A stretch of 32,410 nucleotides of DNA from Robiginitomaculum sp. (lineage in GTDB: Bacteria > Pseudomonadota > Alphaproteobacteria > Caulobacterales > Maricaulaceae), in NCBI GenBank assembly GCA_016763185.1, contig JAESUG010000112.1:1-32410 (forward strand), in the 5' to 3' direction. Shown in pieces: positions 22,982 to 29,554 of the stretch. Made by a program: the position numbers and the translations under genes. Below the pieces are notes generated by a model that saw only the letters and a program-made list of their open reading frames with translations, had not been told where the DNA came from and searched no databases. How positions within the stretch are numbered: position 1 is the first letter of the stretch; each line of letters opens with the position of its first letter.

Positions 22982-23746
22982 ATGCTTGAAGTTGTACAAA
23001 TCCCGTGTCTTACGGACAATTATGGATTTTTGGTTCATGATCCTGTATCTGGTAAAACCATTAGCATTGATAGTCCCGATCCAAATTTGATCACCAAAGC
23101 GTTAGAGGAGCGAAATTGGTCGCTTGATGCGATCTGGAATACCCATCATCATTTTGATCATGCCGGCGGCAATACCGCGTTGGTCGAGCGCTGGAATTGT
23201 CAGATCATCGCGCCATTAGGAGACGCAAAACATATCCCCAATGCCAACCGGTTGGTTACGGACGAAGATACCGTTTTTCTAGGCGAAGTGCCGGCGCGGG
23301 TTTTGCACACACCAGGCCATACCTTAGGACATGTGGTCTATCTGTTCGAATCACAAAAGCTGGCATTTGTCGGCGATACATTGTTTGCCTTAGGGTGCGG
23401 ACGATTGTTTGAGGGCGGGCCAGAACAGATGTGGCCCAGCTTACAAAAACTAATGCAATTGCACCCAAGCACGCTGATCCATTGCGCCCACGAATACACC
23501 GCCGATAATTTACGCTTTGCTTTAACCATTGATCCAAAAAACCCGGACTTGTTGCACCGTGGGCAACAAATTCATCAAGCCCGCGCCGACGGCAAAGCTA
23601 CCATACCGTTTTTATTGGAAACCGACCTTGCGACCAACCCGTTTTTACGGGCAGCAGACGAAGGAATTCGCCGCCAATTGCACCTAGAAACCGCAACGGA
23701 TTGCGAAGTATTTGCAGAAATTCGAGGGCGGAAGGACATGTTTTAA
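22982..23746 (+). CDS. gloB: Hydroxyacylglutathione hydrolase (glyoxalase II)
   Basis: A 254-residue metallo-beta-lactamase-fold hydrolase converting S-lactoylglutathione to lactate and glutathione in methylglyoxal detoxification. The start [20 protein letters not shown] follows AAAGGA. Metal ligands are visible: THHHFDH at 54-60, HTPGHT near 110, [11 protein letters not shown] near 135 and HCAHEYT near 170. The C-terminal helical domain carries NPFLRA. Length is normal. The stop overlaps convergent purH by 4 bp. Confidence 0.95.
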
Positions 23747-25335
23747 TGGCGAAAATGGCGCATGCCGGTAAAAACCATCGCTATTCCTGCTGCATCGGCC
23801 GCCGCAATTACCTCATCGTCACGGAGGGAGCCACCGGGCTGAATAACGGCGCTGGCCCCGGCCAGTGAAAGCTCGGATAACCCATCCGCAAACGGAAAAA
23901 ATGCGTCTGAAGCGGCGCTTGAACCAAGGGTGCGGCTTTGTTCCCACCCGGCTTGCTCACATGCTTGCTTTGCTTTGCTGCTGGCGATTTTGGCCGCATC
24001 AACCCGGCTCATTTGTCCGGCGCCAATGCCCGCGGTTGCGCCGTCTTTGACATACACAATGGCATTGGATTTAACGTGTTTGGCTATTTTCCAAGCCATG
24101 ACTAGATCAATCAATTCGGACCGGGTTGGTTTTATCTTGGTCACACAAACCAGATCATCAACGTCTATAGCTCCGTTATCGCGCTCTTGAACCAATAAGC
24201 CATCCGTCACCGTTTTTACCTCGGCGCCAACGCGGGTTGGCTCCGGCATTGCGCCGGTGAGCAACACGCGCAAATTTTTCTTGGCCGCAAATATTGCCAA
24301 GGCTTCGGTGCTGGCCATAGGCGCAATCACCGCTTCAACAAATATTTTACAGATCTCGGTAGCGGTCTCGGCGTTAATTTCAGTATTGCTAGCAATGATA
24401 CCACCAAATGCCGACACGGGATCGCACGCCAAGGCGGCTTTATAGGCGCCCGCTTGAGTTTTGGACACCGCAACACCACACGGATTGGCATGTTTAATAA
24501 TTGCCACCACGGTTTGCTGCTGCTGCGCAAATTCAGCAACCAGTTCAAACGCGGCATGCGCATCGTTCAAATTGTTATAGCTAAGGGCTTTGCCTTGTAC
24601 TTGGGTGGCATTGGTTACGCCGGGCTTGGTTGTGCCGGTCCGGTAGAGGGCCGCTTGTTGATGTGGGTTCTCCCCATAACGCAATACCTGTTGCAACACC
24701 CCGCCAACGGTTCGGTATTGCGGGTTCGGCTCGCCAATTTGCTCGTTGAACCAATTGGCAATCTTCGTGTCATAATGGGCGGTGCGGCCAAAAGCTTTGG
24801 CGGCCAAGGCGATCCGTAGCTTGGCGCTCACTGCAGCATCTGGCCCCTCGAGCTCTGCCAATACGTCGGCTAGATCAATCATATCCGTGCAAACCGTGAC
24901 AAAGGCATGGTTTTTAGCCGCTGCGCGCAACATGGCTGGACCGCCAATATCAATGTTCTCGATACATGTGGAAAAGTTAGCGCCGCTATCTCTGGTTTGC
25001 TCAAATGGATAGAGATTAACCACCAACAAATCGATCGCAACAATCCCGTGGGTTTGCATAGCGCTCACATGCTCTGGTACATCGCGCTTGGCCAGTAATC
25101 CCCCATGAATATTTGGATGTAAGGTTTTAACTCGACCGTCCATCATTTCCGGAAAATTCGTCAACTCGCTGGCATCAAGCACCGGCAATCCAGCCGCCAA
25201 CAAGGTTTGGGCGGTACCGCCCGTTGAAACCAGTTCAACCCCAAGGGCGACCAACCGCGTGGCATATTCGGCCAACCCCGTTTTATCAGAAACCGAAAGC
25301 AAGGCCCGTTTGATCGCTAAGGGTTGTTGGCTCAT
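23743..25335 (-). CDS. purH: Bifunctional AICAR transformylase / IMP cyclohydrolase
   Basis: A 530-residue enzyme for the last two steps of de novo IMP synthesis. The N-terminal IMP cyclohydrolase (about 1-200) shows [21 protein letters not shown] and [15 protein letters not shown]. The C-terminal transformylase shows [29 protein letters not shown], the catalytic [12 protein letters not shown], and [11 protein letters not shown]. Length is normal. The heparinase-family gene lies 72 bp upstream on the same strand, a conserved alphaproteobacterial pairing; no riboswitch-like structure was recognised in the gap. Confidence 0.96.
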
Positions 25336-27859: not shown

Positions 27860-27935
27860 TAATGAGGTTCGAAACCCATTCTAACAATAGCAACCATAGT
27901 GATCTCTATCATACCGCTTTCTAAGTAGGCGGGAC

Positions 27936-27990
27936 TTGACATTAATTTTTGTCAGGTATACATGACATAATATGTCAAGATAACCTGACA
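27936..27990 (+). promoter_or_regulatory. Promoter with two TGTCA-N8-TGACA operators
   Basis: A consensus -35 TTGACA (27936-27941) is followed at 15-16 bp by TATACA/ATACAT. Two palindromic sites, TGTCA-N8-TGACA, lie at 27950-27967 (covering the likely -10) and 27973-27990. A further TGACA half-site forms part of the -35. Half-sites start at 27937, 27950, 27963, 27973 and 27986. The array ends 31 bp before the hydrolase ATG. I infer repression by the XRE protein encoded at the end of the cassette. Confidence 0.75.
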
Positions 27991-28021: not shown

Positions 28022-28978
28022 ATGAAAAAATTAAAGCCAAAGGGAGTTATGCATTTCCCGCCCATTAAAAATTTACCCATAGGCGCGATCATAGCTTTGA
28101 TCACAGCCGTAATTGTCGCCATATTGGTGGCACGGGCATCCACCAATGCTGAAGCGGCAACTCAAATTTTTGCGGACAGGATCGTTGTCGAGGTTGAAGG
28201 CGAAGGCACCCCCGTCTTGATCATTCCAGGCCTTACCTCCTCACCAGAGGTATTTAAAAGCGCCCTGACACATCATCCACATACGAGTATTCATTGGATC
28301 ACGCTTGCCGGTTTTGCCGGGGTTCCAGCGCCTACGGACTTGGATGAATTTGTTACGCCCGCAGCCAATGCAATTGTGAATTATATCAAGAAGAATGACT
28401 TAAAACAAATAAAGTTCGTCGGTCATTCCATGGGTGGGGTTCTGTCTTTGATGATCGCAGCGCAACTTCCTGAGCGGGTAGACAGTATCTTGATCATCGA
28501 CGCGGTTCCGTTCTTAGCTGCTTTGTTCCAACCCGGTGCTGATCCCGAACTTGTAAAAAACAACAAAGCAACAATGCGCGCGCAAATTAGTAATATGAGC
28601 AATACCGCGTTCATCGCAATGATGCGCCAAGGCCTCCCAAGGCAAGCAACATCGCCCGCAGCACAAGCCCGTGTCTGGGCTGATATTGAACGTGCCGACC
28701 AACAAGCTGTTGCTGTTGCGACATCGGAACTGTTCACCACGGATTATCGCCCTATTTTGAAAAATATTGATGCTGAATTGTCTGTGATAATTCCACACAA
28801 TGCGTATATCGGTGTAACGCCCGAACAATTGCGCGATCGGTACAAAGACCAGTATAATGGCATTGAAAATGCTGAATTTCATGTCATTGAAAATTCTCGC
28901 CATTTCATTATGCTTGATCAACCTGAAGCGCTCTCCGCAGCATTTAACGCTTTCATGGAAGGTAACGTAAATGAATAA
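28022..28978 (+). CDS. Membrane-anchored alpha/beta hydrolase
   Basis: A 318-residue protein with a basic N-terminus, one hydrophobic helix (about 20-38) and an alpha/beta-hydrolase domain. VLIIPGLTSSPEVF (65-78) carries the oxyanion-hole region. GHSMGG (134-139) gives nucleophile Ser136. SRHFIMLDQPE near 290 gives the catalytic His. The acid is probably in the SVIIPHNAYIGV region or nearby but is not certain. The domain should face the periplasm. The substrate is unknown. CGGAG precedes the start. Its stop overlaps the next gene by 8 bp (ATGAATAA). It is the first gene of a three-gene cassette under a palindromic operator array. Confidence 0.85.
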   Translation: MKKLKPKGVMHFPPIKNLPIGAIIALITAVIVAILVARASTNAEAATQIFADRIVVEVEGEGTPVLIIPGLTSSPEVFKSALTHHPHTSIHWITLAGFAGVPAPTDLDEFVTPAANAIVNYIKKNDLKQIKFVGHSMGGVLSLMIAAQLPERVDSILIIDAVPFLAALFQPGADPELVKNNKATMRAQISNMSNTAFIAMMRQGLPRQATSPAAQARVWADIERADQQAVAVATSELFTTDYRPILKNIDAELSVIIPHNAYIGVTPEQLRDRYKDQYNGIENAEFHVIENSRHFIMLDQPEALSAAFNAFMEGNVNE

Positions 28979-29357
28979 GCCAGCCAAATTATACGGCATT
29001 CGGATGGTCTGGATTTTCGTCTTTTACACTGTCACCGTTGTTGGCATTAATCTGCTCGATGATCAATTTACATTGCCACAATGGTTTCGAATAACGATGT
29101 CATTGGCTCCAATACTTCCAGCAGTTCTGATGGTATTTGCGATTATTTCGTTCGTCCGAAGCATGGACGAAGTTTGGCAACGGATCATTACCGAGTCTTC
29201 TCTGGCTTCTGCGATAATTGTCGGGCTTGGCTGTTTCACCTATGGGTTTTTGCAAGGCGCAATGGTATTACCTGATATTTCACTATTGTGGGTATGGCCG
29301 GCCCTGATCGCAGTTCAAGGCATTGCCATGATCTTTGTCAAACGACGTTACCAATGA
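28971..29357 (+). CDS. Multi-pass membrane protein of unknown family
   Basis: A 128-residue hydrophobic protein with about four transmembrane helices (roughly 10-28, 43-62, 77-97 and 103-121) and a basic C-terminus (VKRRYQ). I do not recognise a named domain. Small four-helix proteins are often encoded directly before short XRE regulators, as here. Overlaps of 8 bp upstream and 4 bp downstream indicate coupled translation with both neighbours. It may act with the hydrolase or sense the signal for the regulator; this is inference from position only. Confidence 0.8.
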   Translation: MNKPAKLYGIRMVWIFVFYTVTVVGINLLDDQFTLPQWFRITMSLAPILPAVLMVFAIISFVRSMDEVWQRIITESSLASAIIVGLGCFTYGFLQGAMVLPDISLLWVWPALIAVQGIAMIFVKRRYQ

Positions 29358-29554
29358 ACAATAATATTCGCGCCCTTAGAGCGAAACTACGCTGGAGCCA
29401 AGCGGACCTTGCCGAACATGTCGGAGTTTCGCGCCAAGCAATCAACGCCGTAGAAACTGGAAAGCATGACCCATCTCTGCAACTTGCGTTTAATATTGCA
29501 AAGTCGTTTAACCTGACGATTGAGGGCGTATTTGACCCAACGGCGCAAGAGTAA
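29354..29554 (+). CDS. Small XRE-family HTH repressor
   Basis: A 66-residue DNA-binding protein that is essentially one Cro/C1-type helix-turn-helix. The pattern RALRAKLRWSQADLAEHVGV (6-25), SRQAINAVETGKHDPSLQLA (26-45) and LTIEGVF near the end is typical of YgzD-like short regulators. Start ATG at 29354 overlaps the membrane-protein stop by ATGA. Being the last gene of the cassette, and given the palindromic sites at its promoter, it probably represses its own operon. It converges on rsmB with 16 bp between stops. Confidence 0.92.
   Translation: MNNNIRALRAKLRWSQADLAEHVGVSRQAINAVETGKHDPSLQLAFNIAKSFNLTIEGVFDPTAQE

Follow-up and report, generated by a model that had tools for sequence, protein, structure and literature searches.

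The window, which is the whole 32,410-nucleotide stretch of Robiginitomaculum sp. DNA analysed here, carries three overlapping genes on its forward strand that encode an alpha/beta hydrolase (ABH), a four-helix membrane protein (TM) and a small XRE regulator (XRE), and these are preceded by an array of palindromic operators (Table 1). The three open reading frames are present where the first-pass annotation had placed them and with the overlaps that it had given, 8 nt between the ABH and TM genes (28971-28978) and 4 nt (ATGA) between the TM and XRE genes (29354-29357). The N-terminal anchor and the GHSMGG motif that it had read in the hydrolase also hold, the former appearing in our structural model as a hydrophobic helix. 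The operators were absent from that annotation.

Table 1. Coordinates of the cassette genes and of the elements read within and upstream of them
Feature	Position	Strand	Basis
First operator, degenerate, AGTAGGCGGGACTTGACA	27924..27941	+	Hand reading; matches by position the first operator of L051, L054 and L056; putative
Likely -35 box, TTGACA, right arm of the first operator	27936-27941	+	Hand reading against relatives; putative
Operator 2, TGTCAGGTATACATGACA	27950..27967	+	Exact TGTCA-N8-TGACA
Putative -10 box, TATACA, 15 nt past TTGACA, within operator 2	27957..27962	+	Weak consensus; hand reading
Operator 3, TGTCAAGATAACCTGACA	27973..27990	+	Exact TGTCA-N8-TGACA
ABH, alpha/beta hydrolase, 318 aa, with N-terminal membrane anchor or signal peptide	28022..28978	+	Open reading frame, Pfam, model
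N-terminal hydrophobic helix of ABH, residues 20-51	28079..28174	+	Model; part under pLDDT 60
Nucleophile elbow GHSMGG of ABH, residues 134-139, Ser136	28421..28438	+	
TM, four-helix membrane protein, 128 aa, without a Pfam family above cut-off	28971..29357	+	
Conserved Asp66-Glu67 between TM helices 2 and 3, predicted cytoplasmic side	29166..29171	+	Conservation, loop charges
XRE/HTH_3 regulator, 66 aa	29354..29554	+	

Around the cassette we tested four neighbours, PurH (23743-25335), a heparinase II/III-like protein, a glycine-zipper 17 kDa-type protein and RsmB, and for these four the earlier description of the block as otherwise housekeeping is roughly right. Neither the Rfam search at gathering thresholds nor the tRNA search returned a match. 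In another genome of the same genus (L135:900-8024), the homologues of RsmB, the 17 kDa-type protein and the heparinase are contiguous with no cassette in between, and a TM-TM-XRE set lies ∼2-3 kb from them. For this reason, the position of the cassette is not fixed.

We searched family genomes with an ABH profile built from eight ABH proteins encoded near TM-XRE, which therefore favours the subfamily linked to that pair; of the 137 genomes, 46 gave an ABH match at E ≤ 1e-20. The three genes are neighbours in 37 of these 46, a count made up of all 30 of the first-returned ABH loci and 7 of the 16 fetched afterwards. We also scanned named genomes using the ABH profile alone and retained the 80 best of 411 confirmed stretches. 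The three genes occur together at 46 of these 80 loci: 20 in the order ABH-TM-XRE, 25 in the order TM-XRE-ABH and one on opposite strands, with 34 ABH genes lacking the pair. When these 80 loci were sorted by record titles, the triad was present in 42/46 from named Alphaproteobacteria (L088, one of the four without it, has a record that begins just 262 nt before ABH) and in 2/32 from other named groups (Woeseiaceae L062 and Corticimicrobacter L109), while two more triads were labelled merely Proteobacteria. The same title sorting gave 25 gammaproteobacterial loci with ABH and neither TM nor XRE. The most similar named ABH among the 80, at 51% identity, belongs to a Robiginitomaculum MAG and sits in the same three-gene set.

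Searching from the membrane protein instead, we found TM in 91 of the 137 family genomes, including 44 of the 46 with ABH versus 47 of the 91 without it (Fisher p 3.6e-8, with relatedness ignored). With the cut-off at E ≤ 1e-20, 47 of the 91 TM genomes have no ABH, which is thus not integral to the regulator. In a TM-only search, matches occurred in 26 of 61 genomes, the window's own counted. At 20 loci read from this search, the window's own again included, XRE accompanies TM in the gene set at 19, the twentieth being cut off by a contig end, and a homologous ABH is present in nine; a few loci have an additional TM gene between members of the set. XRE was read beside TM at fetched loci such as these, a subset of the 91 TM genomes. 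The breadth of TM and its presence in nearly every ABH genome point to TM-XRE as the chassis and ABH as a frequent cargo, and the changed gene order argues that the association has been selected, beyond mere inheritance. The cassette is a genuine conserved module that recurs in many alphaproteobacteria well above chance.

Two further gene families were seen beside ABH. In seven Caulobacter-type loci (L071, L072, L081, L084, L086, L088 and L112), one gene family lies 3′ of ABH, and the sole member tested (L084) is TraB/PrgY/GumN. Genes of another family, LysR-type by eye, lie near ABH in seven of the 34 lone-ABH loci (L067, L079, L085, L117, L119, L120 and L129), from Pseudomonas, Erwinia, Leclercia, Cedecea and Advenella, where the ABH family is perhaps under another regulator.

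The promoter region of the ABH gene carries palindromic operators of the form TGTCA-N8-TGACA. The exact pattern occurs three times in the whole 2.47 Mb genome, and two of these sites are at the cassette promoter. The first and second operators are separated by 8 nt, likewise in L051, L054 and L056, and the second and third by 5 nt, as in L052 and L055. Relatives have between one and four operator sites, mostly two or three, and the arms of their exact pairs are always 8 bases apart (spacings of 4-12 bases were allowed, and up to three pairs were listed per locus). In many of them, the TTGACA right arm of the first site resembles a -35 box and the next site covers the -10 region, regardless of which gene leads, which is the arrangement that a repressor would show. 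In the window itself, a promoter scan returned no sigma-70 site near 27950, and the promoter was read by hand against the relatives. The single shared promoter proposed earlier is thus backed by the gene overlaps and by the operator array 5′ of ABH but not by the scan, and we treat it as putative. The proposal that the cassette is self-regulated gains strong support from the conserved array upstream of it, and on this computational evidence autoregulation appears very likely.

A broader form of the operator, TGTMARG-N4-CYTKACA with up to 2 mismatches, which was partly learned from loci later scored, lies upstream of 41 of 45 triads (the exceptions being L072, L086, L112 and L118), as against 0.4% of 824 random windows and one of 33 windows in front of ABH genes that lack TM-XRE; L092 and L076, with upstream windows under 250 nt, were excluded from the triad and lone-ABH counts. 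The single lone-ABH match is in Bordetella petrii (L098), where no TM-XRE was detected and a one-mismatch operator falls at +73 of the longest ORF. Genome-wide placement and controls are stronger evidence for the operator than the scoring of loci from which the pattern came. The 137 family genomes contain 47 exact sites, compared with 6 when the pattern is reversed, and at 38 of the 47 a TM or ABH gene follows within 1.2 kb. Among the remaining nine, one is beside an amidohydrolase and a TM-XRE pair that the TM genome search had missed (L169), one precedes a different small membrane protein-XRE pair (L170), one is directly upstream of a TraB/PrgY/GumN gene (L167), and two precede lipoprotein-like ORFs with sub-threshold matches to alpha/beta-hydrolases (L174) or to a peptidase (L171); the other four have no evident link.

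ABH stands apart from TM-XRE in nine family genomes, seven of them of the same genus. In six of these seven (L158, L159 and L161-L164), the top-scoring operator in the entire fetched locus is at most 100 nt upstream of ABH, as is the second-best in the seventh (L160). At L157, the second and third best scores are at -45 and +13, and at L165 the best is at +99, all counted from the longest ORF reading, whose true start may be further in. Lone ABH genes of the genus have operator-like sites near -72/-40, weaker than the cassette operators. At L134:5778-8321, where an IS1595-type transposase, a PIN-domain gene and others sit between TM-XRE and ABH, the separated ABH has its own operator pair. Together, these sites suggest control in trans, with the proviso that those at unlinked ABH genes are weak, come mostly from one genus or related species, and have a TTGACA arm that could merely be a -35 box.

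These observations also bear on whether ABH has nothing to do with TM-XRE beyond a common promoter, as one might suppose from the frequency of lone ABH in Gammaproteobacteria and of TM without ABH in many genomes. The two gene orders, the opposite-strand case and the operator-like sites at unlinked ABH genes all argue otherwise; we rejected chance neighbourhood on these grounds and regard it as highly improbable.

In the TM model (mean pLDDT 93.8), four long helices pack into a bundle. LiaF-TM is the sole Pfam match of TM, below the cut-off at 18.2 versus 27 bits, and Foldseek found nothing in the PDB at E ≤ 0.001, a result that does not amount to evidence of a new fold. Loop charges predict that both termini are cytoplasmic and, therefore, that the loop between helices 2 and 3 is as well. 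This loop holds two of the six positions conserved in at least 90% of 18 sequences: E67 is invariant and D66 reaches at least 90%. The loop is a plausible candidate for the contact with XRE, which itself matches HTH_3 at 55.1 bits (cut-off 23). From the pairing of the two genes, and by analogy with known systems, we lean towards the view that TM acts on XRE.

The composition of the pair also resembles a toxin-antitoxin or defence-like module in which TM would be the toxin and XRE the antitoxin. Autorepressor palindromes are typical of toxin-antitoxin loci, the genes here overlap, and XRE is related to the HipB/Y4mF antitoxin family, with a score of 51.8 bits that nevertheless falls below the NCBIfam cut-off of 71.65. 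PADLOC found no acceptable defence component among the cassette proteins, giving a generic HTH for XRE, a weak Cas3d match for ABH (E 0.0036) and nothing for TM, and a search of 72,556 plasmids with TM returned one weak match. We rejected this reading as very unlikely, given the missed Y4mF cut-off, the conservation of TM as a four-helix protein and the operator-like sites that precede unlinked hydrolases too.

XRE genes of the same genus also adjoin other small membrane proteins with an ADERD motif, the DUF2178-XRE pairs, which are similar in layout to TM-XRE but have no significant homology to TM (hhalign probability 0.2); hhalign comparisons of TM with two small membrane proteins of other XRE loci left homology unsupported. 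In genome G016, a DUF2178-like membrane protein (21.4 bits, cut-off 22.8) adjoins XRE at L177:1002-1478, TM has no match at E ≤ 1e-8, and ABH keeps its operator.

ABH scores 53.2 bits against Abhydrolase_1 (cut-off 25.8), and its Pfam match, GxSxG motif and His place it in the Abhydrolase_1/6 superfamily. The 25 best of its 39 NCBIfam matches (PcaD, BioH, RutD, YbfF and others) are all far below the equivalog cut-off, with PcaDC the best at 57.7 bits versus 390, so that none of these assigns ABH to a characterised family. The first-pass annotation had named such a family, along with rare co-occurrence of the three genes elsewhere, as outcomes that would speak against its reading, and neither came about. 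The fold and the catalytic residues rest on the model (pLDDT 82.3) and on conservation: all 81 aligned sequences have G134, H135, S136, G138, D160, D241 and H294. At the position after strand 7 where the acid usually lies, 55 of the 81 have Asp and the window's ABH has Asn; since this position is not conserved and D160 and D241 are, one of the latter is probably the catalytic acid. N-terminal hydrophobic segments occur in 61 of the 65 ABH relatives scored and a lipobox-like match in five of the 65, where the 65 are what remained of 80 hydrolases after 15 without the anchoring motif of the regular expression were dropped. These N-termini make the envelope the most likely site of action, a location in which we have high confidence, while any particular substrate would be a doubtful guess.

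Two readings compete most seriously with ABH as the exported output of the switch, namely a hydrolase-as-sensor scheme and a lipid-remodelling function. In the first, ABH would bind and cleave a small signal, as RsbQ or the plant receptors D14/KAI2 do, and inform TM-XRE. The likeness lies in the model, which has a GxSxG motif and a conserved His and whose VIA-align Z is highest for D14/KAI2 (28.3), with RsbQ at 27.0, and the co-encoding of ABH, TM and XRE in two orders would suit such a partnership. However, the Pseudomonas fluorescens aryl esterase reaches 26.6, just 1.7 below the top, and entries for this esterase rank first in Foldseek. Both D14 and RsbQ use a catalytic acid after strand 7, the position that is not conserved here although Asp160 and Asp241 are; ABH is also probably exported, unlike these proteins, and TM-XRE presumably works alone in the 47 TM genomes without ABH. 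We therefore consider a sensory hydrolase improbable.

In the second reading, ABH would be a phospholipase for membrane-lipid upkeep under an envelope-stress switch, with a lipid or lipid perturbation as the ligand and no role in detoxification. PlaF has phospholipase A activity, a single N-terminal hydrophobic helix and dimerisation through that membrane helix, and we know of no XRE or TM partner for it. The model of ABH likewise has the alpha/beta-hydrolase fold behind an N-terminal hydrophobic helix, and PlaF (6i8w) appears at Foldseek rank 24 and, by sequence, at E 1.6e-5. The LiaF-TM match, sole and sub-threshold, would fit an envelope-stress role for TM. Identity to 6i8w, in a comparison that covers fold and sequence, is only 18%, and some ABH relatives are lipoprotein-like, which leaves a PlaF-like enzyme a possible but minority explanation.

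Among known regulators, the LytTR Regulatory Systems (HdrRM and BrsRM) come close in layout. In these, a membrane protein inhibits the regulator with which it is paired, and autoregulation runs through direct repeats upstream of the -35 box (PMC6193735), with membrane sequestration described for HdrRM (PMC13384398). The cassette shares the pairing of a soluble regulator with a separate small multi-helix membrane protein in what gene overlap suggests is one operon, as well as autoregulation, promoter repeats and variable cargo. Compared with those same accounts, it differs in several respects: its regulator is HTH_3/XRE and lacks the LytTR DNA-binding domain, its repeats are palindromes that appear to overlap the putative promoter, its membrane gene precedes the regulator gene instead of following it, and its control is probably repression instead of positive feedback. 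The DNA-binding part of another regulator, BcrR, is of the XRE type. Published accounts of BcrR describe a four-helix membrane domain that anchors the regulator, no obvious extracellular domain and direct sensing of bacitracin (PMC3968067, PMC13384398, PMC10269533). BcrR is a single chain whereas the cassette divides the DNA-binding and membrane parts between two ORFs, and BcrR activates a transporter operon, unlike the cassette. Because a defining feature of each was looked for and is absent, the cassette is a member of neither group, and by analogy, it would work as a BcrR divided in two would, or as LytTR Regulatory Systems would with XRE as the regulator. The Caulobacter regulator HigX, a four-helix membrane domain fused to LytTR, is reported to adjoin an uncharacterised hydrolase gene almost universally (PMC13384398). 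The literature searched, mostly outside subscription papers, contained no named system of such composition, as the first annotator had also believed. The novelty is in the combination and the operator, not in a new principle.

Taken together, we favour, with moderate confidence, an autorepressed operon in which the four-helix TM tunes XRE and the product is an envelope-anchored serine hydrolase. Small XRE would bind the tandem palindromes TGTMARG-N4-CYTKACA over the putative -35/-10 boxes and shut the operon. TM, which is encoded with XRE at every locus read except the one cut by a contig end, would be the sensor or tether of XRE, and the signal would lie in or beyond the membrane. Upon signal, TM probably captures or releases XRE via its cytoplasmic Asp-Glu loop. 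The cargo, a serine hydrolase that its N-terminus predicts to be anchored in or exported across the inner membrane, would be made on induction and may act on an envelope ester, lipid or lactone. The earlier reading of the cassette is thereby supported in part: self-regulation is well backed, and a signal-responsive envelope or detoxification role is a proposal, with export of the hydrolase predicted from its N-terminus.

More tentatively, TM-XRE could be the type case of a widespread, unnamed class of split membrane-linked repressors, each a soluble XRE with an interchangeable small multi-helix sensor, that would read the membrane state and switch on exported hydrolases, with TraB/PrgY/GumN, amidohydrolase and PF00756 esterase as further cargo. 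The enzyme would destroy or repair what TM senses, such that each module forms a closed feedback loop; we see this generalisation as possible, though short of probable. Where a small XRE gene adjoins one for a small membrane protein, the two are readily overlooked as a hypothetical pair. Should TM prove to control the repressor, the cassette would be the XRE equivalent of LytTR Regulatory Systems and would carry, in its own enzyme, a clue to the signal. Because the operator can be read and has few other occurrences in the genome, and the enzymatic cargo is defined, this control is directly testable in tractable Caulobacterales.

At two loci of the same genus (L180:1495-3180 and L182:1489-3180), another XRE gene precedes two genes for small membrane proteins and one more ORF. 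In L182, this last ORF is a PF00756 esterase (E 2e-7), and the truncated L180 copy has no match; here a second, unrelated hydrolase is paired with an XRE-membrane protein set.
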